From NCBI GenBank assembly GCA_017428055.1, contig JAFRRN010000016.1, positions 1-48,050 of the forward strand: 48,050 nucleotides of DNA, read 5' to 3'. Of this stretch, positions 9,328 to 31,361 are shown one piece after another. The stretch's first letter is position 1. Each line of letters opens with the position of its first letter. The translations under genes were made by a program, and so were the position numbers. Under the pieces are notes generated by a model, which did not search any database, was not told the origin of the DNA, and saw only the letters and a list, made by a program, of their open reading frames with translations. The DNA is from Prevotella sp. (GTDB lineage Bacteria > Bacteroidota > Bacteroidia > Bacteroidales > Bacteroidaceae).

Positions 9328-9358
9328 GATAGTCTATTGTTTATGTGATGATTAGAAG

Positions 9359-13566: not shown

Positions 13567-13574
13567 CAAAGATA
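13567..13574 (-). promoter_or_regulatory. -7 box of the esterase-hydrolase unit
   Basis: The minus strand reads TATCTTTG, 45 bp before the esterase start, matching TAnnTTTG. A -33 TTTG at the right distance is not clear. Confidence 0.5.
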
Positions 13575-13715
13575 CTGTTTATTGGAATTATAAATGAGTA
13601 CAAATGAGCAAATCAGGTGGATTTTTGTGTCATCGTGTTCTTTTGACGCAAAAACACTCTAAATGGGCATAGTTCTTACTCTTTGGTGTAAAGAATTGGT
13701 ATATGTCCATAAAGA

Positions 13716-13739
13716 AAGGGATGCTTTTGAACATCCCTT
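13716..13739 (-). terminator. terminator after SusD
   Basis: AAGGGATG (13716-13723) pairs with CATCCCTT (13732-13739) around an 8-nt loop. On the minus strand the hairpin lies 20 bp after the SusD stop and is followed by a T-rich TTCTTT. Confidence 0.65.
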
Positions 13740-13759
13740 CCCTTTTGAATCAAGTTTGT

Positions 13760-15892
13760 TTATTCTTGCTTGAAACCATAACCGTTAGTGAATCCACCAT
13801 TGCTCATCACATTAGGAGTGAATGGCCAGTAGTGGATGGGTGCAGTCTCATAGTCGTATTCATAGAACAAGTACTTGTAGTATTCGTCTGCATTGGCTAC
13901 AAGAGTCTTGCCCCAGTCAACAGCCGTATATCCATCTTCTTCCAAAGCGGCAATCTCAGCATCGCTCAGGCGAGTGAACAAACCTTGGATTGCCAAGTTG
14001 GTCAAGGTGTTGCCCTTATAATCGAGTCCGTATGATGCCCAGTCGTCGTTCACACCACGCCATCCAGGGAACAAGATGGGATCGTTCTCACTTCCTTCAG
14101 GACATTGTGCGGTGAGGCGGTGTCCTTTTACAGCCTTGGCATCCACCATCTTGGTGTAGATCTGTGCGGAGATGACATTGCCATTGTCAAACTGATAGTA
14201 ACCATTGGCAGCAAGGCCATCAAGCATCTTCTTGGTCAAATCCTTCACCGCCTTGATCTTCTTGCCTACAAGACCTGTGCGGATCAACACCTCACGGCGG
14301 TCGCCCTCGCCGGCAAACTCAAAACCGCGCTCGTCGATGACGGCCTCCAACAAGGAACCCTCCTTGGCGATAAAAGCATCAACATTTGCCTTCCCGGCTG
14401 GGAATGCGCGTTCACGGATGATGGTCAGGTATTTCTTTGCCTCAGCATCATTGCCCAACATGGCACATGCCTCGGCATATCCGAGATAGATTTCAGACAT
14501 ACGCATATATGGTCCATTGATACCAGACTTACGTTGGTTGGCAGTCCATACTTTCGTTTGGCGGTTCTCATCCCATTTGTTGTAGGCGATGCCGCCACCC
14601 TTGCCTTGTGAACCAGGGTTGAAAGGCAACAGGATTTCCGTTCCATTGCCACCATTGGATGCCGTTACGGTACATGCCACGTCACGGCGCATGTCGTTGG
14701 GGTCGAACATACCATAGTAGAATGCGGGATTGATGCGCCCCTGTCCGTAGTTCTTGCAAGGATAGTTGTTCTTGCTACCACCAGTGGTTGGACGACCGAA
14801 GGAGTAGGGACGGGCATCGTTGCCTGCACCTTGTGCGATAGACACCTCATAGATGGACTCGTCGGCGAAGCCGTCATCATCCATGTGCATCTGTTGGAAG
14901 AAATATTGGTATGGGTTTCCGTAGGTACGTCCGCTCTCTGCCTTTCGTGGGTCTGTAGTGTGGAATTGTGCCGTGCCTGGATTGTCAATCACAGCCTTGA
15001 AATACTGTTGGGCCATCTCATAATACTTGCGATAGTCGGAGCGGCGACCGTATGATGCGCCGTTGTTATCCTTACCCATGGTCTCGAAAGTCAATGGATT
15101 GCCCTCACCGTCTGTACGGGGAGAGAGGTCGCCACGGCGGATTTGATAACCACCTGCTTCCAAGGCAATACGGCCAATCAGTCCTTCCACGTAGGTACGA
15201 GAGAAATAGTTCTTTCCCGTGATGCCAGGGATAGAACCCACGCGGAACATCAATGGGGCTGCCTCTGTCAATTCTTTTAGGATGACATCATAGATAGAGT
15301 CACGACCACAGAGATTGCCGGAATCAGTAGCCTTGCCACTAAGGTATGGCACATCGCCAAAGTATTTTAGCAACTCACGGTATGCCGTGGCTTTTAGTGC
15401 GACAGCTTCGCCGTAAAGTTGTCCCATGGTACTCTCTGTGCCTGCGGCAATCATCTCGTCGAATCCTTCGGATGTCTGTGTGGCTTGTACCACGATGTTT
15501 GCCTTGTTGACAACGGAATAGAGGGCAGCGTATGTGTCGTTTTCCTTTTGGTAGCTCAACAAACTGTATTCGCCAGCGTATTTGCCGTTCTGGTAGAAAC
15601 ATTCAGGATAGTGGCGACCTGGTTGGGCGTTGAATCCCTCCGGGTGACGCTCAATGTCTGATCCTGCCACATCGGCAGCATAGAAGAGGCCGTCGCCGAA
15701 CACCTTGTTCTGGGCGGCATTGATCCAGTCTGCGTATGCACCTTCGAGGGCGGCACGTGCCGTCTCACTGGTGGAGAACACGAAGGCGGCATCCGTCTTT
15801 GACGGAGAGTCTGTCTCTAAATAGTCGCTACAAGAAGTTGACAAAGCGAGAACTCCTGCTGCGCATAAAGTCGATAATAATATCTTTTTCAT
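13760..15892 (-). CDS. SusD/RagB-like glycan-binding lipoprotein
   Basis: This is a 710-aa SusD-family protein with the lipoprotein signal MKKILLSTLCAAGVLALSTSC (Cys 21), followed by the typical SDYLETDSPS. Family traits are the N-terminal TPR-like helices (AALEGAYADWINAAQN), LKATAYRELLKYFGDVPYL, MRMSEIYLGYAEACAMLGN and VIDERGFEFAGEGDRREVLIRTGL. It sits on the outer-membrane surface as the glycan-binding lid of the SusC transporter. The protein is longer than most SusDs (about 500-600 aa), with long inserted loops in the middle. The start at 15892 is preferred; an ATG 18 nt upstream would add six residues before the signal peptide. It starts 21 bp after the SusC stop. Confidence 0.96.
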   Translation of the reverse strand: MKKILLSTLCAAGVLALSTSCSDYLETDSPSKTDAAFVFSTSETARAALEGAYADWINAAQNKVFGDGLFYAADVAGSDIERHPEGFNAQPGRHYPECFYQNGKYAGEYSLLSYQKENDTYAALYSVVNKANIVVQATQTSEGFDEMIAAGTESTMGQLYGEAVALKATAYRELLKYFGDVPYLSGKATDSGNLCGRDSIYDVILKELTEAAPLMFRVGSIPGITGKNYFSRTYVEGLIGRIALEAGGYQIRRGDLSPRTDGEGNPLTFETMGKDNNGASYGRRSDYRKYYEMAQQYFKAVIDNPGTAQFHTTDPRKAESGRTYGNPYQYFFQQMHMDDDGFADESIYEVSIAQGAGNDARPYSFGRPTTGGSKNNYPCKNYGQGRINPAFYYGMFDPNDMRRDVACTVTASNGGNGTEILLPFNPGSQGKGGGIAYNKWDENRQTKVWTANQRKSGINGPYMRMSEIYLGYAEACAMLGNDAEAKKYLTIIRERAFPAGKANVDAFIAKEGSLLEAVIDERGFEFAGEGDRREVLIRTGLVGKKIKAVKDLTKKMLDGLAANGYYQFDNGNVISAQIYTKMVDAKAVKGHRLTAQCPEGSENDPILFPGWRGVNDDWASYGLDYKGNTLTNLAIQGLFTRLSDAEIAALEEDGYTAVDWGKTLVANADEYYKYLFYEYDYETAPIHYWPFTPNVMSNGGFTNGYGFKQE

Positions 15893-15913
15893 ATTTTGTT
15901 TTCCTTCCATAAA

Positions 15914-18900
15914 TTAGAATGCAACATTAAGACCAAACGTATAGGTACGGGCACGCGGATAGGAGTTCCAGTCGTAGTTGGGAACGGGGAATCCGTCTTG
16001 ACCGCCTGGGCGTGTGTTCACGTCGGGGTCGATGCCGTTGTAACCGGTAATGCAGAAGAGGTTTCCACCTGTGAAATAGACACGCAGATTGCTAATGCCA
16101 ATCTTCTTGGTCAAGGTCTTTGGCAAGGTATAGCCAATTGTCAGCGTGTTCAAACGCAGGTAAGAGGCATCCTCAATGAATTCAGACGACACCATACCAT
16201 ACTCGCAATAGGGCAGTGCGTGTTTGGCGTTGGCGTTCAATGCTGCGAGGACGGTGGGGTCTGTCACGGCATAGAGGTCGCCGTTGGCATCTACATCGTA
16301 CATTCTCCAGCAGTCATTGATGAGGGCAAGGCGGTTCCATCCATAGCTGGTGTTCTTGTTACCCATCATAGAGTGCATGGCGTTGGCATTGTACACATCG
16401 CCACCAATTTGATAGGTGAAGCCAAGTGAAGCATCAAAGCCCTTATAGCTGGCATTGATGTTGAAACCACCCGTATGCTGTGGCATGGTATGGCCAATCA
16501 CGCAAGCATCATCTTCGTTCACGACACCACTTCCATCGGTGTCTTCAAACTTCATGACACCGGGGAATGCAATCTGTCCCTCGGGCAGGTTGTAAGGCTT
16601 ATAACCAGAATAATTCACCACGCCTTGGATGTCAGGAACGCCAGATTTGAGTGTATAGACATTCTCACCGGCAGCGTTCTGCGTAACATTGAAGTCGTCT
16701 ACCGTATAGAATCCCGCGGACTTATATCCGAAGATGGTACCCACAGGCTCGCCCTTGCGGATGATGTAGTCGTTGTATGGGCGTTTCATCGAAGAACCCC
16801 AGTTAGTGTGGGTATCGGCATTCACGCCTTCGCGTACTTTCTCCACATTGTTCTTATTATAATTATAGGTGGCATTCACGCTGAGGTTGAAGTCCTTGGA
16901 ACGGATAATCTCATAGAACACGGAGAGTTCAAGACCCTTATTGGAGGTCTCGCCCACGTTCTGGTATTGATAGCTGTGTCCTGTAGTCTCGGCAACAGGC
17001 ACTTTCATCAAGATGTCCTTGGTGGTGTTCCAATAAGCCTCTAAACTTCCACGCAATTTACCATTCCAGAAACTATAGTCGATACCAAGGTTACGTGACA
17101 CGGTGGTCTCCCATTTCAAGTCAGGATTGGCAAGGATCTCGCCGGGCTTGAAGGTCACGGTGCGCTTGTCGCCATTCCATGTCACCTCTGGTTCCCAGTA
17201 TTCTTTCCAAAGACTGGCATCAATGGCGTCATTACCGGATGTACCGTATGATAGACGCAGCTTTAAGTTGTCGAGCCAGTCGCGTGTGTTTGCCATGAAA
17301 GGCTCATCAGAAATACGCCAGCCGAATGCTGCTGATGGGAAATAGCCCCAATGGTTGTTGGGTGCGAAATTGGAACTACCATCGGCGCGGAACGTTGCGG
17401 TGAAGAGGTAGCGACCTAAGAAGTCGTAATTGACACGGCCAAACCATGACAGTGTATGCTTGGGTTCGCCAATGGTATTGGTGAAGTCAGATACTTTCTT
17501 TGTTTGGTCATAGTAGTCTTCCTTCATGTTGTACATTTGGATGAGACCGAAGGCGCGGTCCATGTCAAACTCTGACGGGAAACCAGCACCAGTCACTTTA
17601 CTGGAGTTAGACTTGCTTGCCAACACCTCGTTGCCAACGAGCAATGATAGGCTGTGATCCTCTCCAAGGCCTTGCACCTCATAGTTGACGGTGGTAGCCC
17701 AACGGACACCATAACCGTTACCCTTGGTCAATTGTGCCTGGTTGTATGGGTTGGTGGACTTGCCGGCATCCCAATACCTTGTCTCGCTCCAGTTGCGGCT
17801 CAACGAGAGTTCGCTCTTTGCGGTCAAGCCCTCGATGATCTTCCATGTCAAGGCACCCATGCCACGTAGACGCTGGCGTTTAGTGATATTGGTATAGTTT
17901 TCGATGATATTCACAGGATTAAAGCTCTCTTCCACACTGGAGTTACCCATAGAGAGCAGAGCGGAGTTGTCTGTGCCAAATGGGTTGTCGATGGGGCGAT
18001 AGCCATAGACGGAATTTCCGGAGGCATAGTCGAAGTTGGTTCCCTCAAACTTCATCTCGCTATAACGAAGGTCGGCATCGAAGGTCAGGTTCTTGGTAAT
18101 CTTTTGGGAAATCTTGAAGTTGCCATTCCAGCGTTGGAAACCCGACTTGATGCGGATTCCATCGTCTGTCAAGTAGTTGACGGTGGCATAATACTTTGTG
18201 TTTTGGTTGCCACCAGAGAGGGAGAGGTCATGGTTCCAAGACCCTGCCGTACGCATCACGTCGTCCACGTAATTGTGTACAGAGACGTTCTTGTAGTCAT
18301 TCAGGTGATTGCCATACTTGGAGCCAAGCCCGAAGTATTCGGCAATGCCGTCCTCTTCGTTCATGCCGTATGCCGTGGCATAACTCCAGTTGTGGAGGAC
18401 ATAGTGGTAGGCGTCCATCACGTCAAGCGTCTTGGGCGATTTCTTGATTTGGTAGTACATGTTGTACTTCACCTTCGCAGTGCCGTCGCCTTTCGACCCT
18501 TTCGTGGTTACGAGGATGACACCGTTGGCACCGCGGGCACCATAGATGGCGGTGGAGGCACCATCTTTCAACACGTCGATGCTCTCGATGTTGTCGGCGG
18601 GAATGTCACTGATGTCACTCACCTGCACACCGTCAACGATATAAAGCGGGTCGTTGCTCTGTGTGATAGAGCCACCGCCACGCACACGGATGGACATCGT
18701 GGCACCTGGGCGACCGTCTTGCGACAAGACGCTCACGCCGGGCAACTGGCCTTGCAATGCCTGTGCTACGTTAGACACGGGGTTGGCAGCGAGCTTGTCG
18801 CCGCTGACGGATGCGACGGCACCCGTCAAGTCCTTACGTTTCATCGTACCGTAACCGATGACGACCACGTCTTCCAATGTCGTGTTGTCTTCATCCAAGA

Positions 18901-19186
18901 CGACTTTCAAGTTTGAGGAACTTCCTACGCCGACCGTTTTCGTTTGGTAGCCAACGTAAGAGAATGTCAATTGTGCGGATGATGGTACCGACGGGATGGA
19001 GAAGTTTCCGTCAATGTCGGTAACGGCACCGGCAGAGGATGCCCCCTTTACCATCACACTCACACCAATCAAGGGTTCGCCATTCGCATCGGTCACATTA
19101 CCCGTAACCGTTTTCTGGGCGAAGCTCACCAGCCATAGCATACTACATGCCATAGCCAAACAAATTCGTCTGATCTTTTGGTTCAT
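15914..19186 (-). CDS. SusC/RagA TonB-linked outer-membrane transporter
   Basis: This 1090-aa protein has a signal peptide (about 1-23, ending VSFAQ), then a carboxypeptidase-regulatory-like domain (TVTGNVTDANGEPLIGVSVMVKG, about 25-105). The SusC signature VVVIGYGTMKRKDLTG and the plug with RVRGGGSITQSNDPLYIVDGV come next. A long 22-strand barrel ends in GLNVAF with a terminal aromatic. It imports bound oligosaccharides through the outer membrane using TonB energy, in complex with the SusD encoded just downstream. No N-terminal extension with an STN domain is present, so anti-sigma signalling is not expected; control probably comes from the adjacent membrane regulator. Confidence 0.97.
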   Translation of the reverse strand: MNQKIRRICLAMACSMLWLVSFAQKTVTGNVTDANGEPLIGVSVMVKGASSAGAVTDIDGNFSIPSVPSSAQLTFSYVGYQTKTVGVGSSSNLKVVLDEDNTTLEDVVVIGYGTMKRKDLTGAVASVSGDKLAANPVSNVAQALQGQLPGVSVLSQDGRPGATMSIRVRGGGSITQSNDPLYIVDGVQVSDISDIPADNIESIDVLKDGASTAIYGARGANGVILVTTKGSKGDGTAKVKYNMYYQIKKSPKTLDVMDAYHYVLHNWSYATAYGMNEEDGIAEYFGLGSKYGNHLNDYKNVSVHNYVDDVMRTAGSWNHDLSLSGGNQNTKYYATVNYLTDDGIRIKSGFQRWNGNFKISQKITKNLTFDADLRYSEMKFEGTNFDYASGNSVYGYRPIDNPFGTDNSALLSMGNSSVEESFNPVNIIENYTNITKRQRLRGMGALTWKIIEGLTAKSELSLSRNWSETRYWDAGKSTNPYNQAQLTKGNGYGVRWATTVNYEVQGLGEDHSLSLLVGNEVLASKSNSSKVTGAGFPSEFDMDRAFGLIQMYNMKEDYYDQTKKVSDFTNTIGEPKHTLSWFGRVNYDFLGRYLFTATFRADGSSNFAPNNHWGYFPSAAFGWRISDEPFMANTRDWLDNLKLRLSYGTSGNDAIDASLWKEYWEPEVTWNGDKRTVTFKPGEILANPDLKWETTVSRNLGIDYSFWNGKLRGSLEAYWNTTKDILMKVPVAETTGHSYQYQNVGETSNKGLELSVFYEIIRSKDFNLSVNATYNYNKNNVEKVREGVNADTHTNWGSSMKRPYNDYIIRKGEPVGTIFGYKSAGFYTVDDFNVTQNAAGENVYTLKSGVPDIQGVVNYSGYKPYNLPEGQIAFPGVMKFEDTDGSGVVNEDDACVIGHTMPQHTGGFNINASYKGFDASLGFTYQIGGDVYNANAMHSMMGNKNTSYGWNRLALINDCWRMYDVDANGDLYAVTDPTVLAALNANAKHALPYCEYGMVSSEFIEDASYLRLNTLTIGYTLPKTLTKKIGISNLRVYFTGGNLFCITGYNGIDPDVNTRPGGQDGFPVPNYDWNSYPRARTYTFGLNVAF

Positions 19187-19396: not shown

Positions 19397-21922
19397 CTAC
19401 TTTTTCTTTTGAAAGGTGGAAGTCTTGTACTCTGTGGGTGTCATGCCCATCTCCGCCTTGAAACATTTGCCGAAATACTTGGGGTCGGAGAATCCACAAC
19501 CGTATGCCACGTCGTTGACCGATATTCCCTCCTCCAGCATCCCACAGGCTTTCCGAATTCGGGCGCTGCGGATGAAGTCGAGGGGCGTCACGCCGAGGAG
19601 TGACTTCATCTTGCGGTTAAGTCCCGAACGGCTGGTGGCGGTTGCCTCCGCCATGTCGCCGATGTTGATGTCTGGGTCACTAATATGTTCCTCAATAAAT
19701 CGCATGGCGCGTTGCATGAAAGCGTCATCTTCAGGTTTCAACTTAGCTGTACTCTCGCTATGTTTGGGGTCTTCGGTGTGTTGGGGATGGTTTTCCGTGG
19801 GTTCGTTCTCAATGTCTTGGGCAACTCCATGGTGTTGGGGTTGTGCGTTGAGTAGGGCAAGATATGCCTCGTAGGTCTCATGCTGTTGCTTATAGAGTAA
19901 GGTGATGTGTCGATAAGTGCGGTATATGGCATATCCCACAAGGGCGATGAGCAACAACAGGAGCAACTTCGCCCATCCCGTCTCCCAGAAAGTGGGCTTG
20001 ACGATGATGGTCAATGTGCGTGTGTTGTCCATCCAAATGCCGTCGCTGTTGGTGGAGCGGATTTGCAAGTGGTATGTCCCAGGTCGCAAGTCCAACAGGT
20101 TAACGCTCCTGTTTTTTCCGATATCGTTCCACTCCTTGGTGTTCTCGCTGATCTTAAAGGCATAGTTGATGTCCTTGCTGTCGGTGTAGTCGAGCGCGGC
20201 GAAGTACACGATGATGTTGCGCGATGGCGGCGTGAGGGTGAGCGTGTCGTATCGTGTGGCGGCACGGTCGATGGCACCATTCTCAATGGAGATGCCCGTC
20301 AAGGAGATGGGAGGCACGAATTGGTTTTGCTGGATATCTTCGATGCCAATCGTGAAGGCACTGTCTTGTAGCCCGAATATCCATCTACCATCGGGCAGTT
20401 GGATGGGGCAGGCATCAGAGAAGCGCAGCCTGTCCTTCCAAAAGAAGGTGGTATACCCTTCTTTAGTCGGTTTGTCTGGATTGAGGAGGATGATTTGGTT
20501 GTTGCTCACGATGGAAATACCATCTCCGTATGGGTAGGCAGAGAGGGCGACATCCGACGGGAAGCCCGTTGCCGTATGGTGATGCCTAAATTCCAAGGTG
20601 TTTGCAAAAAGGTCTTTCGTAGTCACCTGGTTCACGCCGCCACTCTCTGTACATACGAAGATGCGCCCTTTCTTGTCCTGTGTCACATACATAGTGGCAT
20701 CATTGCTGAGGCTCGAACTGCGGTTCCTGTCCTTGGTGTGGCATTTCCAATTGATTTTCCTTGCATCCTTTTCATTAACGTCTGCCACGAGAAGTCCCGT
20801 AGTGGTGGCAGCCAAAAGGATGTTATCCTTGGTAATATGTATTTGCCTTACCCGTTTACAAGTTTCTTTAGGCAACCGCAAGCCATTATCTCCGTGTAGG
20901 AACTGCAACGCATTGTCCCACGGGTGTTCGATGCAATTGACACCGCCATCGAAGGTGGCGAGCCACAATCGCCCATGGGAGTCTTCCGTGATGTAATACA
21001 CGTCGTTGCAACTAAGGGTGTTGGGGTCGGTGGGAGAGTGTCGGAAAGACTCGATGGAGAATGTGCCATCGCTTTGTTCATGCAAGCGGAATAGGCCATC
21101 GGGCTTGCTACCCAACCAGAATACGCCCTTGGAGTCTTGGTATAGACTATAAATGGGAGAGCCAAACGTGGTGTAATGTCGTTGCAATCGCCCATTATGC
21201 CCCAAGTACCCCATGAGGTTATTGTCTTTGTCGTATATCCTGACGGTGGCATCATCCCTGCTCGTCACCCAATATCGTTGTTTGTTGTCAAGAAGGAAAC
21301 AACGGATTTGTGATGGCTTCTCCTGTGGGAAGAAAGTGTACGGACGCTTGTCGAAGGTAAGGCGGTATGCCCCATAGCCGCTGCATAGCCACACATTGCC
21401 TTGGTTGTCTGTGATGCAATAGCGTGGGTTGCCGCTGATGCCCACGTCACTGGGGATGTTCCATGTCTTGCCAAAGCGGTCCGTGAAGAGGTAGGGCTTG
21501 CCATTGTCACGTAAAAAAATATCCCGCCTCCCATCGAAAACGCTTTTCCATTGGGCAATACTCTCTTTCGGCATCTCGCGGTATTGGCAGGTCTTCACGT
21601 CGAAGGTGAAGACGATGCCGTCAATCAGGCACACCAAGTTGCCGTCATCATCAAGCATCATGTCACGGATGCGGTCTGAAGGCATGTTCACGCCATCGCC
21701 TACTTGCGACTTGAAGCATTCAAACTGGTAGCCGTCATATCGGTTCAATCCGTTCCATGTGCCAAACCACATCATGCCATTCCTATCCTGCACGATTTGC
21801 GTGACATGCCATTGTGCCATGCCAGCGAACTCGTCGAAGTGGGTTACGTGGCACACCGACTCGCTCGCCCAAGTGTGGAGTGAGCATAATATAAATAGGA
21901 TAGTGGTGATGATCTTTCCCAT
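19397..21922 (-). CDS. membrane one-component regulator: propeller sensor, Y_Y_Y, TM, AraC output (no kinase)
   Basis: This 841-aa protein has the parts of a hybrid two-component sensor without the phosphorelay. A signal peptide (KIITTILFILCSLHTWA) leads into two-component-regulator propeller repeats (RNGMMWFGTWNGLNRYDG, SKGVFWLGSKPDGLFR, SHGRLWLATFDGGVN) up to about 540. A Y_Y_Y beta-sandwich follows (PPSRNIIVYFAALDYTDS, RPGTYHLQIRSTNSDG), then one membrane helix at about 650-668. A polar linker of about 65 residues leads to an AraC-type HTH (from about 735: DINIGDMAEATATSRSGLNRKM, DVAYGCGFSDPKYFGKCFK). HisKA, HATPase and receiver domains are absent. It probably senses a periplasmic glycan and activates the neighbouring susCD promoter directly from the membrane. 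The start at 21922 is preferred over 21934 because of the -7 box at 21942. Confidence 0.92.
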   Translation of the reverse strand: MGKIITTILFILCSLHTWASESVCHVTHFDEFAGMAQWHVTQIVQDRNGMMWFGTWNGLNRYDGYQFECFKSQVGDGVNMPSDRIRDMMLDDDGNLVCLIDGIVFTFDVKTCQYREMPKESIAQWKSVFDGRRDIFLRDNGKPYLFTDRFGKTWNIPSDVGISGNPRYCITDNQGNVWLCSGYGAYRLTFDKRPYTFFPQEKPSQIRCFLLDNKQRYWVTSRDDATVRIYDKDNNLMGYLGHNGRLQRHYTTFGSPIYSLYQDSKGVFWLGSKPDGLFRLHEQSDGTFSIESFRHSPTDPNTLSCNDVYYITEDSHGRLWLATFDGGVNCIEHPWDNALQFLHGDNGLRLPKETCKRVRQIHITKDNILLAATTTGLLVADVNEKDARKINWKCHTKDRNRSSSLSNDATMYVTQDKKGRIFVCTESGGVNQVTTKDLFANTLEFRHHHTATGFPSDVALSAYPYGDGISIVSNNQIILLNPDKPTKEGYTTFFWKDRLRFSDACPIQLPDGRWIFGLQDSAFTIGIEDIQQNQFVPPISLTGISIENGAIDRAATRYDTLTLTPPSRNIIVYFAALDYTDSKDINYAFKISENTKEWNDIGKNRSVNLLDLRPGTYHLQIRSTNSDGIWMDNTRTLTIIVKPTFWETGWAKLLLLLLIALVGYAIYRTYRHITLLYKQQHETYEAYLALLNAQPQHHGVAQDIENEPTENHPQHTEDPKHSESTAKLKPEDDAFMQRAMRFIEEHISDPDINIGDMAEATATSRSGLNRKMKSLLGVTPLDFIRSARIRKACGMLEEGISVNDVAYGCGFSDPKYFGKCFKAEMGMTPTEYKTSTFQKKK

Positions 21923-21941
21923 ATTTGTAACCATCTGATTG

Positions 21942-23412: not shown

Positions 23413-26346
23413 TTAGTTCGCGGTGAAACTCGTTACAGAGTTTGTTCCAACGTGTGAGCTGCCAAGGTATAGGCCGTGCCAAGCTGTCGTGGCGTCGGTA
23501 GGTGCGGTTGTGTTGTACTTGATGTTGTAAGTACTGCCTTTTACCATTCCTTTTGCGGTGAAGAGGCTTAACGTACTGCTGCACGAAGCTGGGAAGCTAT
23601 AGGTGATGAGGTTGTTGTTACTGGCATCCGACAGGGTATAGTAACGACCAGAGGAATAACTAATCGTACTTGTCACGAAGGCATAACCTTGCTGGGCGTT
23701 AGAGATGGTGCTTGACGATGAGCCTCCCCATCCGCCGCCTCCGCCTTGGCTGGCACCCGCACTGATGGCATATCCCGTACCCGTGATTTGGATGTAGCTG
23801 TTGTTGTCGCAATCGAGACCCTCCTCGGGCGACCCCTTTGTGGTATATGCGAACACTGCCCCGTTGCCGATGGTGATGGCTCCCGTGCGTCCATAGTTGG
23901 AGTCCACCGCGTCGTTTCCATTGGAGTAGCAGACTGTCGCGCCGCCGTTGAAGTAGATGGCTCCGCTGCAATTGATGCAATCGTCATAGCAGGCATAGTA
24001 GTGCTTGCCGCCCTCGATGTAGATGGTGGTCTTCGACTCCAGCCCTTCTGCGCCGTCGGTCGCTGTGGAAACCTCCGACGTGCCTCCATAGAGATAGATG
24101 GTGCCTTGTACCTTGATGGCCTTTGCCGAGCCGCCGCTGCTCTGTTGCATACCGCCACCCCAGCCTCCGCCGCCGGACGATGAACTGCCAAGACGGCTTC
24201 CTGTGGTCTTAACGGTCAGGGTAGGCCCGTTGCCATCGCTTGTGCCTTGTGTATAGGTACCCTTGCTCTTGATGCCCTTGCCGCCGGTGCCCGACATGGT
24301 GATGGTGATGGTGCCGGCATTGAGCTTGATGCTGGTGTCGGCTTTCAAGCCCTTGGCGGTATAATCATCACTCGACCCTTGCTGTCCTGCTCCCGTATTC
24401 GTTATCTTCAATGTGCCACCATTGGTCGTGATATTGGTAGAGGTGACACCACGGCCAGCAGCCCCGGAGGCATTGATGGTAAGCGTTCCGTCGTTTTGGA
24501 TGAAGTCAACGGCTTTCACGCCCGAACTATATGATGCGTCGTTGTTGATGACCTGCATCGCACCGCTTGGAGTGAGTGTGATGTTGCCGCCGTCGATGGT
24601 GACAGTCGCTTTCGATTTCATGCTCTTGCTCATCGCCCCACTGTTCTTCACGGTGATGGTGCCGGCGGCAATGGTAAGGTTTCCGTCTGCCTTGATGCCA
24701 ATGGCATTGTAACTGGTGCCGCTGTCTTCCGACACATCGCTGCTGCCGCTATATGTACTCGTCACATTGGAGAGCGAGTAAGTACGGGTCGAGCCGCTCG
24801 TGGTATAGCTGTTGGAAATGCTATAATAGATGTCCGAGCCCGATGTGGGGCCGCTGAACGTTGCCGACTTGATGGTGTAGGTCGTGCCTCGGCTGGTGTA
24901 ATTGTCACTCTTGAAATAATAGGTGCCAGAGTCTGCCGCGCCAAAGTCATAATAATAGAATGTCACATTGCTGTAGCCATTCGACTTGGTGACCGTGGAG
25001 GTGAGTTGTTGCACCAATGTTCCATCGCTCTTGTAGAGGTAGACAGTCTTCCATGCACTGCTTCCCGTGCCGCCAGGACCCATGCCCCCGCCGCCAGTGG
25101 TGGGAAGGCTGACATATATTTTATATGACGTGGTGGTCTCTGGCTCCGTTGACCCTGTTGTCTCTGCCGTGCCACCCTTGCCGTTGGCTGTGATGTCAAT
25201 GGTAACTGTGGCATTTGTCTCGTCAATGGAGACGGCACCATCGGCACTTATGCCCTTGCCACCGTCTGCGGTGTTTGTGATGGTGATGGTTCCGCCAGTG
25301 ATATTGACGTTTCCATCTGCCTTGATACTTGTGGGATAGCTCAGGTCGGTGTCGGCAATAATGCTGCCCGTCTGAGTCACGGTGATGGATCCTCCCGATA
25401 TTTTCACGTCGCCTCCCGCCTTGATGCCCTTGGCGGCATCGGCGGTCACGGTGAGCGTCAACGTGCCGTCTTCGATATAGACGTTGCCCGAGTCCTCGCC
25501 GTCGTGGTCGGTCAATTCGCCCGTGCTTGCTGTTCCATCGATGTCACACTGGATGGCATCATCGCCCACGCCGCTGATGGTGAGCGTTCCGCTCTCCATC
25601 AAGAAATATTCATCGCAGGAGATACCGTCCTTGACGGCTTGCTTCACGTTGACGGTGCAGTTCTTCATCTGCATGTATTCGGCACTCTTGATGGCATGGG
25701 CCAACGTGCCATAGACATTGAGTGTGCCCTTGCCTTTCAGTTCCAAGTGGCCCTTGCAATAGAGGGCAGACTTCTGCGAGCCGCTGGCGGCGTCGGTCAA
25801 GGTGTTCTCCGTGTCCTTCTTCACGCTCAAAGCGATGCGCTTGCCGTCCATGATGTTGATGGCGGCACCCGAATAGACGGGCGTGGCATTGGTCAACGTG
25901 AGACCGTTAAGTTCAATGGTCGCCTTATACGAGCCTGTCATATAGAACTCGCCATCATCCGATGACCCCGACAACGTATAAGTAATCTCGCCCGTTTCGT
26001 CGCTCACGTCACTGCCCTGGGCGATATTCACATGCGCCCCGCTGACGGTCGGTGTGATATATTGGGCGATGTTGCCCGCCACCCTTACCTTGGCGGACGT
26101 GCCTGAATAGGTGACTTCCACCGTGTTGTCGGTCACGGAGCTGTTGTCTACATACATGTTGTCCACCTCGGAGAGCGTGAACACCTTATTAATAATAGTA
26201 CACGTTGTGCCATCGGCATAGTTCATGTCACCACATTGCGACGCGGGGAAGGCGTATGTCACATCGCCTTGCACCACGTTTAGTGTCTGTGCCATCATCG
26301 CCACCGACATGAGGACGGTGGAAAAGAGCATGGATAATCGTTTCAT
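23413..26346 (-). CDS. large secreted carbohydrate-binding beta-helix protein (Cthe_2159 / DUF4353 type)
   Basis: This is a 977-aa exported protein with the signal MKRLSMLFSTVLMSVAMMAQ; the start at 26346 gives this peptide, while the open frame extends 19 codons upstream without one. From about 80 to 880 it is made of beta-helix coils with the recurring motif IKADGNVxITGGTITI and GKGIxxxGxxxI, plus Asp-rich turns (GDDAIQCDIDG, YYACYDDCINCSG, NDAVDSNYG) typical of the Cthe_2159 family, which binds acidic or cellulosic polysaccharides with calcium. Gly/Ser-rich inserts (SSSGGGGWGGGMQQSSGG) break the helix. The C-terminal 90 residues are a separate beta domain. It has its own promoter (26373-26404) and terminator. 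The setting next to VTC and DUF4956 genes suggests a surface matrix component. Confidence 0.85.
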   Translation of the reverse strand: MKRLSMLFSTVLMSVAMMAQTLNVVQGDVTYAFPASQCGDMNYADGTTCTIINKVFTLSEVDNMYVDNSSVTDNTVEVTYSGTSAKVRVAGNIAQYITPTVSGAHVNIAQGSDVSDETGEITYTLSGSSDDGEFYMTGSYKATIELNGLTLTNATPVYSGAAINIMDGKRIALSVKKDTENTLTDAASGSQKSALYCKGHLELKGKGTLNVYGTLAHAIKSAEYMQMKNCTVNVKQAVKDGISCDEYFLMESGTLTISGVGDDAIQCDIDGTASTGELTDHDGEDSGNVYIEDGTLTLTVTADAAKGIKAGGDVKISGGSITVTQTGSIIADTDLSYPTSIKADGNVNITGGTITITNTADGGKGISADGAVSIDETNATVTIDITANGKGGTAETTGSTEPETTTSYKIYVSLPTTGGGGMGPGGTGSSAWKTVYLYKSDGTLVQQLTSTVTKSNGYSNVTFYYYDFGAADSGTYYFKSDNYTSRGTTYTIKSATFSGPTSGSDIYYSISNSYTTSGSTRTYSLSNVTSTYSGSSDVSEDSGTSYNAIGIKADGNLTIAAGTITVKNSGAMSKSMKSKATVTIDGGNITLTPSGAMQVINNDASYSSGVKAVDFIQNDGTLTINASGAAGRGVTSTNITTNGGTLKITNTGAGQQGSSDDYTAKGLKADTSIKLNAGTITITMSGTGGKGIKSKGTYTQGTSDGNGPTLTVKTTGSRLGSSSSGGGGWGGGMQQSSGGSAKAIKVQGTIYLYGGTSEVSTATDGAEGLESKTTIYIEGGKHYYACYDDCINCSGAIYFNGGATVCYSNGNDAVDSNYGRTGAITIGNGAVFAYTTKGSPEEGLDCDNNSYIQITGTGYAISAGASQGGGGGWGGSSSSTISNAQQGYAFVTSTISYSSGRYYTLSDASNNNLITYSFPASCSSTLSLFTAKGMVKGSTYNIKYNTTAPTDATTAWHGLYLGSSHVGTNSVTSFTAN

Positions 26347-26372
26347 TGAATATGATTTTTTTATATTTGGGG

Positions 26373-26404
26373 CAAAAGTAAGAAAAAATAGGCCATTCGT
26401 CAAA
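26373..26404 (-). promoter_or_regulatory. promoter of the beta-helix gene
   Basis: On the minus strand TTTG (26401-26404), a 20-bp spacer and TACTTTTG (26373-26380) match the consensus exactly, 27 bp before the start at 26346. Confidence 0.75.
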
Positions 26405-26440
26405 AAGTTTCAACGAACAGGCAAATTCTTTCAACAAATG

Positions 26441-27286
26441 CTAAAACTTGTACTTATATCCTAAACCAATAATGTGCATGTTGGGGTCGCTATCGAAATC
26501 ATTGCTCCCCCTGACGTGTTGGTAACGATAATAGAAACTTAATGTGTGGGGCTTGGCAATCTTCCAGTCGGCACCCACCGTGTAACGCATCTTATACAGA
26601 GACCAGGCATTGTAAGCCTCCACGCTCACAAAGGGGTCTACCTTGCAATGGGGGATGTTGTATTCCAGCATCAAACGGCTGCGCAAGACGTTCTTGCCCT
26701 TGCCCTTGTAGGTCTTCTCCTTGGCGTTGCCGTCGTCATCGGTGTCGGTTTCCACGCTTGTCACGTTTCCATCGATGTCATACGAATAGTAATCACGAGT
26801 CACCGTTTTCTCGGGGCGGTAGGTGTATTGCCACCGCTCGCGGAGGGAGATGTCAAGCCTTCCCACAGACCATTGCCCTGTCAGGGAGACGTTGAAGCGA
26901 TGGCGCGTGCCCCAGTACTCGGCGGCTTTTTTCACCTTCCCCGTATATCCGTATGGGTTTCCGTCGTCATCATAGTCATCCTCCTCGTCATCATAATAAG
27001 TGTATTTCTGGTTGTAGTCGCGCAGGAGTGAGTACCCTGCCGATGCCTTCAGCCACGGCATGACCTTATATGAGGCATCCAACCCCACGCTCCAGCGGTC
27101 GGAGGTCTTCAAGTTGTCGCGCAAGCGGTACTCTGCTTCCAAGCCCACATTGAGTCGCTGGTCTATCTTCTTTACCACATTGGCGGAGAACCAAGCCCCG
27201 AAGTCGTCGCTCTGTGCAAATGTGCCCAAGGGTAGGAGCAGCATGATTAGCACGATGGCAGCCTTTCTTTTCATTTTGTCTCTCAT
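26441..27286 (-). CDS. DUF2490-like outer-membrane beta-barrel protein
   Basis: This 281-aa protein has a signal peptide (RKAAIVLIMLLLPLGTFAQ), then alternating amphipathic strands: DFGAWFSANVVKKIDQRLN, WSVGLDASYKVMPWLKASAGYSLLR, FNVSLTGQWSVGRLDISLRERWQY, and a last strand IIGLGYKYKF ending in Phe. This is an outer-membrane barrel, matching DUF2490. A very acidic loop (TYYDDEEDDYDDDGNPYG) and a second Asp-rich loop (ETDTDDDGNAKEK) look like external cation-binding segments. It starts 9 bp after the DUF4956 stop, so it is in the VTC-DUF4956 operon. An alternative ATG is at 27274. Possible role: an outer-membrane channel or anchor for the polymer or surface protein of this cluster (inference). 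Confidence 0.82.
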   Translation of the reverse strand: MRDKMKRKAAIVLIMLLLPLGTFAQSDDFGAWFSANVVKKIDQRLNVGLEAEYRLRDNLKTSDRWSVGLDASYKVMPWLKASAGYSLLRDYNQKYTYYDDEEDDYDDDGNPYGYTGKVKKAAEYWGTRHRFNVSLTGQWSVGRLDISLRERWQYTYRPEKTVTRDYYSYDIDGNVTSVETDTDDDGNAKEKTYKGKGKNVLRSRLMLEYNIPHCKVDPFVSVEAYNAWSLYKMRYTVGADWKIAKPHTLSFYYRYQHVRGSNDFDSDPNMHIIGLGYKYKF

Positions 27287-27295
27287 GATATGCTG

Positions 27296-27973
27296 TTATT
27301 GATTGTCCATCATTTCTGATTGTTTCACCTTTACCTTGTTGTCTACGCTATTGGAATATTGGCCTTCGGGGTCGTCATAATAAACCCTTACCACCGTCAT
27401 GTCGCGCAACATGTCTATGCCACCCACTTCCACCTTTTTGATTTTCAAGCCAAGGCGTTGCTCCAGGTCGGCAATCAATTCTTCCCGCCGCTCGGGTTTG
27501 ATGAGTTCGATGCGGTCGTATTGCACCAACTTGGAATGGCGGATATGCAAGAATTTCTCGCAAAGCCATATCGCCACGGTCACGATGAAGTCGGTCACAA
27601 GTATTTCCGCGAGGGTCGCCGAACTGGCAATGGCGTTCACCACCGACAGGGAGATGATGACAAAGAGGTACGTCATCTCCCTCACGGGCATCGCATCGGT
27701 GCGATAACGCATGATGGAGAAGATGCCGAAGAGGCCGATGCCGATACCCATGGATGTCTTTCCGCCCAGTTTGTCAAGCCCGAAGATCATGAAGAACACC
27801 AGGAAGAAGATGGCGATGCTTGTCAGGAGGAACGTGAAATAGAAGTCTCTGCGCTTACTCTTGCGGTAATAGAGCCTATCGATGATGAACCAATTGAAGA
27901 GGATGCAGACGGTGAAGCGCACCATCATCTCCACAAAGTCATTCGTAAACGAAAATAAATAATGTAAATCCAT
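27296..27973 (-). CDS. DUF4956 membrane protein
   Basis: This is a 225-aa protein starting MDLHYLFSFTNDFVEMMVRF; the frame continues upstream into the VTC gene region, but this ATG is the sensible start, 20 bp after the VTC stop. Four membrane helices are visible: VRFTVCILFNWFIID, FYFTFLLTSIAIFFLVFFMIFG, a helix around TYLFVIISLSVVNAI, and LVTDFIVTVAIWL. Conserved DUF4956 features include GKTSMGIGIGLFGIFSIMRYRTDAMPVREMTYLF. A cytoplasmic alpha/beta tail follows (ELIADLEQRLGLKIKKVEVG..VRVYYDD). In many bacteria this gene sits next to VTC-domain genes, as here, which suggests that it forms the membrane part of a polymer-synthesis or transport system. Confidence 0.88.
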   Translation of the reverse strand: MDLHYLFSFTNDFVEMMVRFTVCILFNWFIIDRLYYRKSKRRDFYFTFLLTSIAIFFLVFFMIFGLDKLGGKTSMGIGIGLFGIFSIMRYRTDAMPVREMTYLFVIISLSVVNAIASSATLAEILVTDFIVTVAIWLCEKFLHIRHSKLVQYDRIELIKPERREELIADLEQRLGLKIKKVEVGGIDMLRDMTVVRVYYDDPEGQYSNSVDNKVKVKQSEMMDNQ

Positions 27974-27993
27974 GTATGTAAAAAATTGGTTGT

Positions 27994-28755
27994 TCAGAAT
28001 AATGATGATGAATCTTGGTACAAGATCTTGGATACATCGATGAGTTTCGGCTTGAAGCGGTTGACTTGCAGTTGGTCGTTGGTCAAAGCCGACCCCATGC
28101 AATACTTGCTGAAGCCGTGGGGGAATATGCGTAATTGCCGGAGCATCTCCAATATGGGCGAGTAGCAAAGCCCGTCGCGCTTGAGTTCCACGATAACCAA
28201 ATCGCCCATGTGCCTGTTCACTCCCGACACTAAATTGAAAAACTGAAGATTGGAGTCGATTGTCAGCCGTTCTGTCTTTGCCTTGTTCACCAGCGTGATG
28301 CGGTCGAAATTGTTGCGGATGGCAGGAATCAAATCCGACTTGTCATAGCGTAGGTGTTGCTGGAGAAACTCGATTTTCTCTTGCTCGCCCAAGTCCATGT
28401 CGGTCACTTTCATGCGTTTCTTCTTCGTGCGTCCATGGTTGTTTTTCGTCTTTACCTCCATGAATTGGAGGTTGGAACTGACATACGTGCGGAAACGCAA
28501 CTTCTGCCTACCCGTATGGCCGCTCTGGTGAACATAGAACATGTCAAACCCCGTGGTGTCATAATAGGTCGTGTCGTACCGCATGTTGCGCTCGCCGTCG
28601 ATTTCCTGCGCCCAATACTCCTCGCGGGCCATCTCCAAGAGCTGTTTCAGCGCGGGTATGGTGGTCACGAATTTTGTGTCGATGCGATTCATGAGCCGTA
28701 TGCCACTCATCTCCTCTAAGCTGATGGGGTCGTATTGGGTGAGTATTCTGTTCAT
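27994..28755 (-). CDS. VTC-domain (polyphosphate polymerase-like) protein
   Basis: This 253-aa protein fits the bacterial VTC-domain family, related to the catalytic tunnel of yeast VTC4, which makes polyphosphate from ATP. The basic and acidic tunnel residues are visible: MNRIDTKFVTT near the start, YYDTTGFDMFY, QKLRFRTYVSSNLQFMEVK, NNHGRTKKKRMKV, then VNKAKTERLTIDSNLQF, GDLVIVELKRDG and the C-terminal SKYCMGSAL. No SPX or membrane segment is present, so it is cytosolic and probably acts with the DUF4956 protein encoded directly downstream. A perfect promoter lies at 28781-28812. Whether the bacterial enzyme makes polyphosphate or another polymer is not proven for this clade. Confidence 0.9.
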   Translation of the reverse strand: MNRILTQYDPISLEEMSGIRLMNRIDTKFVTTIPALKQLLEMAREEYWAQEIDGERNMRYDTTYYDTTGFDMFYVHQSGHTGRQKLRFRTYVSSNLQFMEVKTKNNHGRTKKKRMKVTDMDLGEQEKIEFLQQHLRYDKSDLIPAIRNNFDRITLVNKAKTERLTIDSNLQFFNLVSGVNRHMGDLVIVELKRDGLCYSPILEMLRQLRIFPHGFSKYCMGSALTNDQLQVNRFKPKLIDVSKILYQDSSSLF

Positions 28756-28780: not shown

Positions 28781-28812
28781 CAAATTTACCGATTTCGTTT
28801 ATAAAGCGCAAA
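28781..28812 (-). promoter_or_regulatory. promoter of the VTC-DUF4956-DUF2490 operon
   Basis: On the minus strand TTTG (28809-28812), a 20-bp spacer and TAAATTTG (28781-28788) match the consensus exactly, 25 bp before the VTC start. Confidence 0.8.
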
Positions 28813-28828: not shown

Positions 28829-28860
28829 TTTCATTTTGTCAGTGAAAACATGTATTTTTG
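28829..28860 (+). promoter_or_regulatory. promoter of the GH27-EEP unit
   Basis: TTTC (28829-28832), a 20-bp spacer and TATTTTTG (28853-28860) fit the -33/-7 pattern with one mismatch, 23 bp before the ATG at 28884. It is divergent from the VTC promoter. Confidence 0.55.
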
Positions 28861-28883
28861 TGCCAAATAATCAATTAAACACC

Positions 28884-31361
28884 ATGAAATCTTTCCAAAA
28901 CCTCATTCTTTATATTCTCTTGTGTTGTGTGTCTACTGCTTGGGCGGATGGGAAAAAAGACTTCCATTCATTCGCTCCCACGCCACCGATGGGATGGAAC
29001 TCGTGGGATTGCTATGGCCCAAGCGTCAAGGAGCGTAATGTATATGACAATGCTTTCTATATGTCAGACCATGGCATCCTCGATAAAGGATGGAATTACA
29101 TCGTCGTGGACATACGTTGGTACACCAACGACACGGGCTTTTGGTACAATACGTCTGCCACCTACACGATGGACGAATACGGTAGGTACATGCCCAATGT
29201 CAATCGCTTCCCGTCATCGGCAAATGGGGTGGGGTTTAAGGTGCTGGCAGACAGTCTTCATGCCTTGGGGTTTAAGTTTGGCATCCATATCATGCGCGGC
29301 GTTCCCATTGCGGCTGTCAACAAGAAATTGCCCATCAAAGGCACGTCATATACCTGTGACCAGATCGCCAAACGCAACGATTCCATCTGTACATGGCTCG
29401 TTGACAATTACTCTATTGACTGCACCAAGCCCGGCGCACAGGAGTATTACAACTCATTATTAGATTTATATGCCTCGTGGGGTGTGGACTTCCTCAAGGT
29501 GGATGACCTCAGCCGTCCCTATCATGACGGTGAGATATGGCTCCTGCGCAATGCCATCGACCAATGCGGACGTGACATCGTGTTCAGCATGAGCCCCGGC
29601 GCGACGGCATTGAACAAATGGAAGAGTTGCCAGGAGAATGCCAATATGTGGCGTATGATGGATGACATGTGGGATAACTGGAGCGACGTGAACAAGGAAT
29701 TTTCGCTCTGCGCCAACTGGAACCAATACCGGTTGCCTGGCAGTTACCCCGATTGCGACATGTTGCCTTTTGGGAAAATACGGCTCACCAACAGTGATGC
29801 CCGCTATACCAACCTCACCCATGATGAGCAACAGACGGTGATGACGCTGTGGAGCATCTTCAAGTCGCCACTTTTCTTCGCGGGCGACTTCACTTACAAT
29901 GATGAATGGACCAACCAACTCATCACCAACGAGGAGGTTATCTATATCGACCAATACGCTGAGAATAACCGACAGCTCTCCAACGACGGGACAAAGGTCG
30001 TCTGGGCTGCCGACAAACCCAATAGCGATACCAAGTATGCTGCCCTCTTCAACATCGGGAGCAGCGACAAATGGATTCGATACAACGAGGCGTTGTTCAC
30101 CTCTGAGACCATCTCGCCACTCACCACCGGCTATGGCACAACCGTCGAGGTGGAGATACCGCAAGGGAGCAAGCGGTTGGCACTCGTCGTGGACGATAGC
30201 GGCGATGGATATAGTTATGACCATGGCGATTGGATCAATCCCACCATCGTCTTTGCCGACGGCACCGAGAGGCTGCTGGTCAAGGCCGATGTGATACGCG
30301 AGGATTACAGCGGCTCGTATTTTAAGCGCATCAACTACGACAAGAATATCAACGGGAATGGCAAACTCAATGTCAATAATGTGGAATATGACCACGGCTG
30401 GTCGTGCAACGCCAATGCAATGGTGCTTTACCAATTGCCTTCCGACGTGGTGAGATTCAAGGCTCTCTGTGGCATCGACAACACGGGACGCTTGCAGACA
30501 GGCTCGACACCGTCGATGAAATTCCTCGTTTTCAGCGAAGATCCCACCAAGCGCGATAACTGCAACCCGGCTTATGCCGTTGCCAATAGTGGGCTGGTCA
30601 GTAGGACTTACCAAAAGGAGGGAGTGGATTTGGAGGCAGACATCACGGGTGCGAGCCAACTATATCTCGTCGTGACCACGGCTGGCGACAACTTCAATTA
30701 CGACCATGCCAATTGGATTAACCCCACATTGATAGACAAAGACGGCAAGGAAACCAAGCTCACCTCCATTCAATATGACAAGTCAGTGACCGATTGGTAC
30801 AACATCTCCAACTACGGGAAGAACGTCGATGGCGGCAGCCTCATCGTCAACGGCAAGCGATATGCCGACGGCATCGGTACCAATTCTAATTCCGTCATTA
30901 CATATACCCTGCCACGGGACAGGGAGTTTGTCAAGTTCAAGGCATTCTGCGGCTACGATGACGGCGTGAAAAATGCGCCCAATGGCGTGACGATGGAGTT
31001 CCTGGTCTTCACCACCGACCCCATCGGGTCTGACAGCATCGCCATTCCGCTCGACTTGAATACCCTTGGCATAGACAATGACACGCCCTGCGACATCCAC
31101 GATATATGGAAAGGGGAACACGTTGGCACCTTCAAGAACGCCGACTTCACGCCTTCCATCCCCTCGCATGGCTGCGGTTATTATCGCGTTACGCCTACTG
31201 CCCCTGACGGTATCATGCTGCCCCATGAAGACAAACGAGTGCAAGGTGGGGTGAAGACGGCCAATGCCACTTTCACCATCGACGGGAAAATGCTCCCCAA
31301 CTCCAATGTCCCCCGTAATCAAGTCGTCGTTCACAAGGGAAAGAAGATATTGGTCAAATGA
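28884..31361 (+). CDS. GH27 glycosidase with two NPCBM domains, exported
   Basis: This 825-aa protein has a signal peptide (SFQNLILYILLCCVSTAWA) and a GH27 barrel opening with PTPPMGWNSWDCYG. The nucleophile lies in DFLKVDDLSRPY (Asp about 207) and the acid/base in WRMMDDMWDNW (Asp about 261), with FSMSPGATALNKWK between them. A beta domain follows. Two repeated NPCBM-like carbohydrate-binding domains (about 420-553 and 583-713) each hold a YDHGDWINPT or YDHANWINPT motif. A short C-terminal tail ends FTIDGKML..KGKKILVK. The family acts on alpha-galactosides, but some members cleave beta-L-arabinopyranosides or isomaltodextran, so alpha-galactosidase is only likely. The ATG at 28884 is chosen because it opens the signal peptide; a longer frame adds 16 residues. 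Confidence 0.9.
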   Translation: MKSFQNLILYILLCCVSTAWADGKKDFHSFAPTPPMGWNSWDCYGPSVKERNVYDNAFYMSDHGILDKGWNYIVVDIRWYTNDTGFWYNTSATYTMDEYGRYMPNVNRFPSSANGVGFKVLADSLHALGFKFGIHIMRGVPIAAVNKKLPIKGTSYTCDQIAKRNDSICTWLVDNYSIDCTKPGAQEYYNSLLDLYASWGVDFLKVDDLSRPYHDGEIWLLRNAIDQCGRDIVFSMSPGATALNKWKSCQENANMWRMMDDMWDNWSDVNKEFSLCANWNQYRLPGSYPDCDMLPFGKIRLTNSDARYTNLTHDEQQTVMTLWSIFKSPLFFAGDFTYNDEWTNQLITNEEVIYIDQYAENNRQLSNDGTKVVWAADKPNSDTKYAALFNIGSSDKWIRYNEALFTSETISPLTTGYGTTVEVEIPQGSKRLALVVDDSGDGYSYDHGDWINPTIVFADGTERLLVKADVIREDYSGSYFKRINYDKNINGNGKLNVNNVEYDHGWSCNANAMVLYQLPSDVVRFKALCGIDNTGRLQTGSTPSMKFLVFSEDPTKRDNCNPAYAVANSGLVSRTYQKEGVDLEADITGASQLYLVVTTAGDNFNYDHANWINPTLIDKDGKETKLTSIQYDKSVTDWYNISNYGKNVDGGSLIVNGKRYADGIGTNSNSVITYTLPRDREFVKFKAFCGYDDGVKNAPNGVTMEFLVFTTDPIGSDSIAIPLDLNTLGIDNDTPCDIHDIWKGEHVGTFKNADFTPSIPSHGCGYYRVTPTAPDGIMLPHEDKRVQGGVKTANATFTIDGKMLPNSNVPRNQVVVHKGKKILVK

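Follow-up and report, generated by a model that had tools for sequence, protein, structure and literature searches.

What a predicted polyphosphate polymerase does beside genes for membrane and surface proteins is the question raised by four neighbouring minus-strand genes on contig JAFRRN010000016.1 of a Prevotella sp. assembly (GCA_017428055.1), the whole of which (48,050 nt) was analysed and is called the window below. In their order on that strand, the genes encode a VTC-domain protein, a DUF4956 predicted inner-membrane protein, a DUF2490 predicted outer-membrane beta-barrel and a Cthe_2159-family beta-helix protein. An earlier note, made from the sequence alone, had taken them for a cytosolic polymerase and a membrane partner serving an export path that ends in an outer-membrane barrel and a surface beta-helix, and had called the arrangement unusual. 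The comparisons reported here confirm that the cluster exists and is conserved, as the Bacteroidales form of a known kind; the cytosolic-type VTC protein, the membrane partner and the linked predicted barrel and secreted beta-helix family were retained from that outline, whereas the unusualness was not. The reading that we favour, tentatively and with a little less than even confidence, is that a polyphosphate polymerase is coupled to a membrane partner and feeds the cell envelope.

Conservation of the cluster in Prevotella and in the order

Near relatives of the locus were taken as the best 80 of 515 confirmed matches to a profile of 14 VTC sequences, with flanks of up to 10 kb in which neighbours were identified with home-made family profiles. 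Since the loci were chosen by VTC similarity alone, their neighbours are unselected, and since the best 80 were taken they are close relatives, mostly from metagenome assemblies whose labels read Prevotella or Prevotellaceae and of which many come from the rumen. DUF4956 was found downstream of VTC in 79 of the 79 loci with at least 500 nt after VTC, and DUF2490 in 74 of the 76 with at least 1,000 nt (L097 and L100 being without it); VTC-DUF4956-DUF2490 is the rule in these Prevotella-type loci. A Cthe_2159 gene came directly next on the same strand in 33 of the 69 loci with DUF2490 and at least 2,200 nt after VTC, an adjacency for which we estimate a chance of the order of 0.1%, given four such genes in the host. 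The host assembly (4.2 Mb, completeness 93.6%) holds VTC, DUF4956 and DUF2490 once each, and Cthe_2159 as eight matches in four open reading frames (ORFs).

A survey of 148 genomes of the order (requested completeness at least 90%) found VTC in 74, DUF4956 in 79 (78 above the cut-off) and PPK1 in 95. VTC and DUF4956 occurred together in 73 genomes, VTC only in one, DUF4956 only in six and neither in 68 (Fisher 1.6e-33, unadjusted for phylogeny), and in the sole VTC-only genome the VTC match was cut at a contig end (G137); the co-occurrence on which the earlier note had made its proposal depend is thus conserved between these two families. The order yielded 82 VTC loci (81 outside the window's genome plus G048, two rows of G152 being counted as one gene), and the fetched stretches contained DUF4956 in 81, DUF2490 in 37, CotH in 25 and Cthe_2159 in eight. 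Neighbours were called by a longest-ORF rule, by which some of the genes classed as other are possibly wrong frames, and the family scans of neighbours covered the stretches other than those from L144, L184, L040, L173, L035, L038, L098 and L103.

A quick VTC tree of 96 rows, in which long branches meet and 43 of 93 inner branches are weak, separated three clades. Clade A (support 100, 11 order loci) had DUF4956 upstream in ten and DUF2490 in none; clade B (support 92, 15 loci) had an HlyD-like protein in 13 and DUF2490 in none; and clade C, which holds the window (support 96, 56 order loci), had DUF2490 in 37 and an HlyD-like cluster member in none. The linkage in the near loci, together with these 37 of 56 clade C loci, contradicts the earlier description of the arrangement as unusual without CotH. 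The HlyD-like call is based on HlyD_D23 at E 4.8e-6 for one member, below the cut-off. This putative adaptor sits upstream of VTC in the 13 clade B loci, and in one of them (L136, 4673-8531) HlyD-like, VTC and DUF4956 genes are followed by a member of the OEP/TolC family (E 8.1e-27), placing inner-membrane, periplasmic and outer-membrane parts in one row. Besides the 13 HlyD-like proteins, lipoprotein-like proteins (23) and small secreted-looking proteins (21) were recurrent partners among the 82 loci; both kinds recur in clade C, where the lipoprotein-like one is also prealbumin-like. Partners are clade-bound, and the numbers do not stand for independent events. In clade C, the gene that follows on the same strand was CotH in five loci, Cthe_2159 in four, another gene in 23 and none in 24, so that conservation of the fourth position is confined to the Prevotella-type set; the cluster can do without CotH and Cthe_2159, which are optional.

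In the window, the four genes and two promoter matches are arranged as given in Table 1. The close spacing described in the earlier note was confirmed, with gaps of 20 nt (VTC-DUF4956) and 9 nt (DUF4956-DUF2490), followed by 94 nt before Cthe_2159. Both DUF4956 and Cthe_2159 start with ATG, the TTG listed for the former at 28168 being an extension and the one listed for the latter at 26403 falling within a promoter match. The pattern TTTG-N18..22-TANNTTTG, which we take to be the Bacteroidota-type promoter consensus, was matched exactly three times in the window, where 0.64 matches would be expected (at least three in 4 of 100 shuffles), and two of the three lie directly 5' of the VTC and Cthe_2159 genes, as had been noticed before. 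All four proteins exceeded the curated Pfam cut-offs (VTC 96.5 bits against 23, DUF4956 174.6 against 30.6, DUF2490 103.4 against 29.8, Cthe_2159 190.8 against 25.8), and an NCBIfam scan of the window genes gave no match above a cut-off. The reported absence of a CotH kinase also held, with no Pfam match on the window contig or among the scanned cluster neighbours; the 12 CotH matches of the host genome, in 11 ORFs, are all on other contigs.

Table 1. Positions in the window of the four cluster genes and the two promoter matches before them
Feature	Position	Strand	Basis
VTC-domain (triphosphate tunnel) protein, predicted polyphosphate polymerase, 253 aa	27994..28755	-	Pfam PF09359, E 2.4e-27
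DUF4956 predicted inner-membrane protein, 225 aa	27296..27973	-	Pfam PF16316, E 1.9e-51; hydropathy
DUF2490 predicted outer-membrane beta-barrel, 281 aa	26441..27286	-	Pfam PF10677, E 1.6e-29; charge pattern
Cthe_2159-family beta-helix protein, 977 aa	23413..26346	-	Pfam PF14262, E 3.5e-56, three matched stretches
Bacteroidota-type promoter match 5' of VTC	28781..28812	-	Pattern search
Bacteroidota-type promoter match 5' of Cthe_2159	26373..26404	-	Pattern search

The predicted polymerase and its membrane partner

VTC is the only Pfam domain in the first protein, with neither SPX nor any other domain. A wide profile of 23 VTC sequences, including the window and clade B and drawn from the window's order, Deinococcus and Nitratireductor, was compared with the PDB, and all eight matches at E<=1 were Vtc proteins, the best being Vtc4 (3g3q, E 7e-15), with no CYTH enzyme among them; the window protein alone had no match at that threshold. 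The 23 aligned sequences share 21 invariant columns. Using Vtc4 numbering that we derived from the 3g3q chain, the window protein keeps K28/K200, R87/R264, R89/R266, K102/K281, R152/R361, R163/R373, E190/E426 and S216-K217/S457-K458 (window/Vtc4), all of them invariant in the 23 sequences, so that the tunnel residues, whose lack the earlier note had named as a reason to drop the proposal, are present. Cited papers are used here and below for the portions of text available to us: the yeast complex is inactivated by R264A/R266A/E426N (PMC9911596), and Vtc4 K458 is termed catalytic (PMC4641920); these four positions correspond to R87, R89, E190 and K217. Judged by sequence, the assignment of the window protein as a polymerase is good. 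Bacterial VTC proteins also carry a polyphosphate polymerase annotation (e.g. in Deinococcus, Nitratireductor and other records), and no assay of any of them was met in the available portions of the literature searched.

That the protein is instead a tripolyphosphatase or another TTM enzyme is improbable. TTM folds have many activities (PMC4641920), and D26 places an acidic residue at the patch position of the TTM phosphatase Glu-4, where Vtc4 has T198; R24 and K192, however, are basic at the positions of the phosphatase Glu-2 and Glu-171 (all by our own mapping from that paper), and the 23-sequence profile matched Vtc4 and no CYTH enzyme.

The DUF4956 protein of the window is strongly hydrophobic in its N-terminal part, to about residue 144, and polar in its C-terminal part by hydropathy; R91 and R89 are conserved in 100% and 98% of 93 sequences. 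The Pfam MgtC model matched, below its cut-off, six of nine scanned DUF4956 proteins (E 9e-5 to 0.06), five from clade B and one from Nitratireductor. Aligned with hhalign to a set of five MgtC/SapB proteins, four of them from plasmids and the fifth E. coli YhiD, clade B DUF4956 gave a probability of 96.1 over 193 columns, C-terminal part included, and 97.1 in the reversed direction, whereas all controls (eight column-shuffled alignments, one reversed alignment, HdeD, VTC and DUF2490) remained below 1; clade A gave 40.7. Window-clade and clade B DUF4956 matched each other at 94.5 over 101 columns, and at 98.1 with all non-B sequences pooled. Because clade B links the two, the window protein appears to be a distant MgtC/SapB relative, and only by way of this sister clade. 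Against the PDB, the DUF4956 profile had no match at E<=1 and a wider profile only two, at E 2.1 and 4.9.

Further arrangements of DUF4956 were seen. In L199 (6389-9017) it lies directly 5' of Cthe_2159 and in L197 (5077-6778) it is followed by a weak CotH match, both in genomes without a VTC match, and in L080 (6471-7880) a single ORF of 470 aa joins DUF4956 to DUF2490 and has the signal peptide of the barrel in its interior, either a natural fusion or an assembly error.

The resemblance to MgtC bears on a different explanation, in which the pair would serve phosphate or nucleotide homeostasis in the cytosol: VTC would make chains, an MgtC-like DUF4956 would sense or regulate, and DUF2490 and Cthe_2159 would share their expression while meeting separate needs of the envelope. 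In other bacteria MgtC is linked to the control of ATP and phosphate, clade B DUF4956 aligns with MgtC/SapB along its length, and in Deinococcus sp. QL22 a VTC-DUF4956 pair lies near acid phosphatase and phosphonate transport genes with no annotated envelope partner adjoining. The linkage of DUF2490 to VTC in the near loci, the single copy of the barrel gene in the host genome and the recurrence of HlyD-like, lipoprotein-like and small secreted-looking partners across the order speak the other way, and we regard this explanation as distinctly unlikely.

Envelope partners and the nature of the product

The DUF2490 and Cthe_2159 proteins have signal-peptide-like N-termini, by inspection, ending FAQ and MAQ, respectively; a signal-peptide regular expression, with 39 of 77 DUF2490 and 11 of 56 Cthe_2159 sequences matched, was too crude and was not used. 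Conserved charges in DUF2490 are largely basic. Nine columns were at least 70% K/R against three D/E in 46 diverse sequences, and at an 80% threshold 22 columns were K/R against eight D/E in 64 Prevotella-type sequences; of these 22, some form i/i+2 pairs, six in all (p 0.004 under random placement). The hydrophobic share around eight of the nine conserved basic columns (R128 was left out) was 57% at i+-1 against 21% at i+-2 (p 0.0009), K245 departing from this pattern. These conserved arginines are in the pattern expected of side chains facing a basic barrel lumen. Polar lumen residues occur in any barrel, and the notable point is the excess of basic residues; the overall composition of DUF2490 is also basic (1581 K/R against 1187 D/E). 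At E<=1 the DUF2490 profile matched three OmpT porin chains and an antibody chain in the PDB (best E 0.39), with no OprP/OprO chain.

As for the acidic loops that had been ascribed to the barrel, the window protein has nine D/E within one 15-mer, but this is not general, at least eight being found in 14 of 63 relatives, and it was rejected as evidence.

The window Cthe_2159 protein had no PDB match at E<=0.1, and a relative from L199 matched 4peu/4phb at 2e-40. Cthe_2159 proteins are beta-helices that bind cellulose, polygalacturonate and acid sugars, and the family occurs together with CotH domains in anaerobic rumen fungi, where the authors trace Cthe_2159 to rumen bacteria (PMC6712302).

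Other phyla provided neighbours that bear on the product. Eight of 16 plasmid records listed were analysed, and DUF4956-VTC pairs were found in Deinococcus (two loci, one with CotH), Nitratireductor, Aminobacter and Shinella, and by ORF scan in Nonomuraea and Streptomyces. The next or next-but-one gene after VTC was named a phytase-like esterase in all four alphaproteobacterial loci, that is, in two Aminobacter records, one Shinella record and Nitratireductor, where the order is DUF4956, VTC, a PiT inorganic phosphate transporter and a phytase-like protein; of the two Deinococcus loci, QL22 had the phosphate-related neighbours mentioned above and the second had no phosphate-named neighbour. 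Phosphate-named neighbours, present in four of four alphaproteobacterial loci and in QL22 of the two Deinococcus loci, suggest polyphosphate. They contrast with Gram-positive bacteria (streptococci, clostridia and bifidobacteria), in which CotH, poly-phosphate polymerase and DUF4956 genes adjoin Pel polysaccharide genes (PMC7112168).

The Gram-positive neighbourhoods favour a polysaccharide-linked module, in which VTC, DUF4956 and the surface proteins would regulate or decorate an exopolysaccharide, polyphosphate would be a signal or a phosphate donor and Cthe_2159 would hold the polysaccharide at the surface. The same direction is indicated by the cellulose and polygalacturonate binding of Cthe_2159, by the chitin synthase annotation of a glycosyltransferase that lies close to the VTC and CotH genes of NELoc-2 in Clostridium perfringens (PMC2879425), by an NTP_transferase gene after DUF4956 in L128 and by a GDP-mannose-dehydratase-type gene before a second DUF4956, with no VTC adjoining, in L203. 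No glycosyltransferase family was found, however, among the 8 + 9 scanned proteins around the window cluster, a set that does not include every ORF, or among the scanned order-loci neighbours, and the alphaproteobacterial neighbours have phosphate-related names, so that we consider such a module possible but rather unlikely.

Under the favoured reading, delivery to the envelope by a polymerase coupled to its membrane partner, VTC, docked on the MgtC-related DUF4956, would work in the cytosol like yeast Vtc4 and build a phosphate chain from nucleotide. The yeast chain is believed to leave through a channel lined with basic residues (PMC9911596); DUF4956 may likewise help to discharge the chain across the inner membrane, or may regulate the enzyme there. 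The DUF2490 barrel with its conserved arginines would pass or hold the polyanion at the outer membrane, and the Cthe_2159 beta-helix would act outside the cell by binding the polymer or a surface coated with it, its place possibly being taken by a CotH protein in other lineages. The comparative basis for this reading consists of gene linkage, family membership, catalytic residues and the lack of a PPK1, PPK2 or PPX match in the host; we infer from it the identity of the product, its passage through the membrane and the roles of barrel and beta-helix, and delivery to the envelope is plausible. A stricter version, dedicated polyphosphate secretion by a Vtc4-like enzyme and an MgtC-type protein, with either an arginine-lined DUF2490 barrel or an HlyD/TolC-type duct according to lineage and with surface polyphosphate held by Cthe_2159 or CotH, seems unlikely.

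Several observations count against the favoured reading. The 14-sequence VTC profile, made without the sister clade, also ranked Vtc4 at the top, yet at no better than E 0.02; Csm3 chains, which are unrelated, followed from E 0.04, with no CYTH enzyme, so that the strong Vtc4 match depends on the wider set. By our mapping the acidic D26 is a further departure from Vtc4, which has T198 there, towards the Glu-4 of TTM phosphatases. The window DUF4956 has no Pfam MgtC match at E<=1, window-clade DUF4956 compared directly with MgtC/SapB gave an hhalign probability of 0.6, the DUF4956 profiles matched no Vtc1-type chain in the PDB, and MgtC proteins are not known as established channels. Some DUF4956 genes have no VTC partner and adjoin Cthe_2159 or a weak CotH match. 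The HlyD/DUF2490 split tracks the VTC clades and may represent few events; the scanned neighbours of the order loci included only one TolC-family protein, one phytase-like protein and one sugar-type nucleotidyltransferase (L128); and phytase-like is an annotation name, a prediction. Across the 148 genomes VTC and PPK1 were independent (46 both, 28 VTC only, 49 PPK1 only, 25 neither; p 0.73), and a role of VTC as a general PPK1 replacement was therefore rejected. Within the genus, VTC was found in 15 of 36 genomes and PPK1 in four, never both, a difference (0 of 15 VTC genomes against 4 of 21 others, p 0.12) that is not significant, several of the genomes being incomplete; and the host assembly, in which PPK1, PPK2 and PPX/GppA had no match, is itself incomplete.

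In Bacteroidales of the gut and rumen the cluster forms a compact and conserved unit that is amenable to genetic testing, joining a predicted polymerase to a membrane partner linked with the MgtC superfamily through its sister clade and to lineage-specific outer-membrane partners. If the product does reach the surface, it would represent a route for bacterial polyphosphate export.

Flanking genes and comparison with known systems

The window cluster is flanked by genes of other kinds. Polysaccharide-utilisation-type genes occupy 5025-19186 (a TonB-dependent receptor, SusD, GH36, a BspA-type leucine-rich-repeat protein and a fasciclin-domain protein), followed at 19397-21934 by a regulator with Reg_prop propellers, Y_Y_Y and an AraC-type domain, in which the Pfam scan found no histidine-kinase domain. 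The divergent neighbour of the VTC gene (28836-31361) encodes an alpha-galactosidase-type protein with an NPCBM domain.

In the model Bacteroidales Bacteroides thetaiotaomicron, DUF4956 and DUF2490 genes are likewise neighbours (BT3498-BT3499; PMC10434189). In that paper they share one row of a table of genes that go down when iron is depleted (-7.6-fold, P 0.175), a response rejected as evidence given its P value, and the literature matches listed for BT3497-BT3499 were, apart from this paper, on Pseudomonas genes. The open literature matches listed, consulted in part and with preprints and most subscription journals outside their scope, contained no description of VTC-DUF4956-DUF2490 as a system. 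The Gram-positive pel clusters, with VTC and DUF4956, and NELoc-2, with VTC and CotH, resemble the window cluster in lying beside surface-related genes; the window, in contrast, has DUF2490 and Cthe_2159, and no CotH adjoins it, nor was a polysaccharide synthase identified beside its cluster among the scanned proteins. OprP and OprO, phosphate and polyphosphate porins according to titles cited in PMC4849052, resemble DUF2490, in a comparison that we draw ourselves, in having conserved basic barrel residues that suit a phosphate polyanion; no sequence relation between them was found in the PDB search at E<=1.

The yeast VTC complex has the same tunnel domain with the same active-site residues and, like the bacterial loci, a membrane protein as near-constant partner. 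It differs in having SPX and a fused channel domain, the window protein consisting of the VTC domain only; the partner here is an MgtC-like DUF4956, whose profiles matched no Vtc1 sequence in the PDB, and outer-membrane and surface partners are added in the window cluster. MgtC is not known as a VTC partner, and the word is absent from the main texts of the listed papers that name DUF4956. E. coli YhiD and the other MgtC/SapB proteins resemble clade B DUF4956 along the alignment given above, C-terminal part included, whereas window-type DUF4956 is linked with them through clade B only. New here are the apparent match of the DUF4956 sister clade to MgtC/SapB membrane proteins, detected by profile alignment, the conserved DUF2490 arginines with their basic-lumen pattern, and a separate VTC clade with an HlyD-like adaptor in place of DUF2490, once also with a TolC-family gene.

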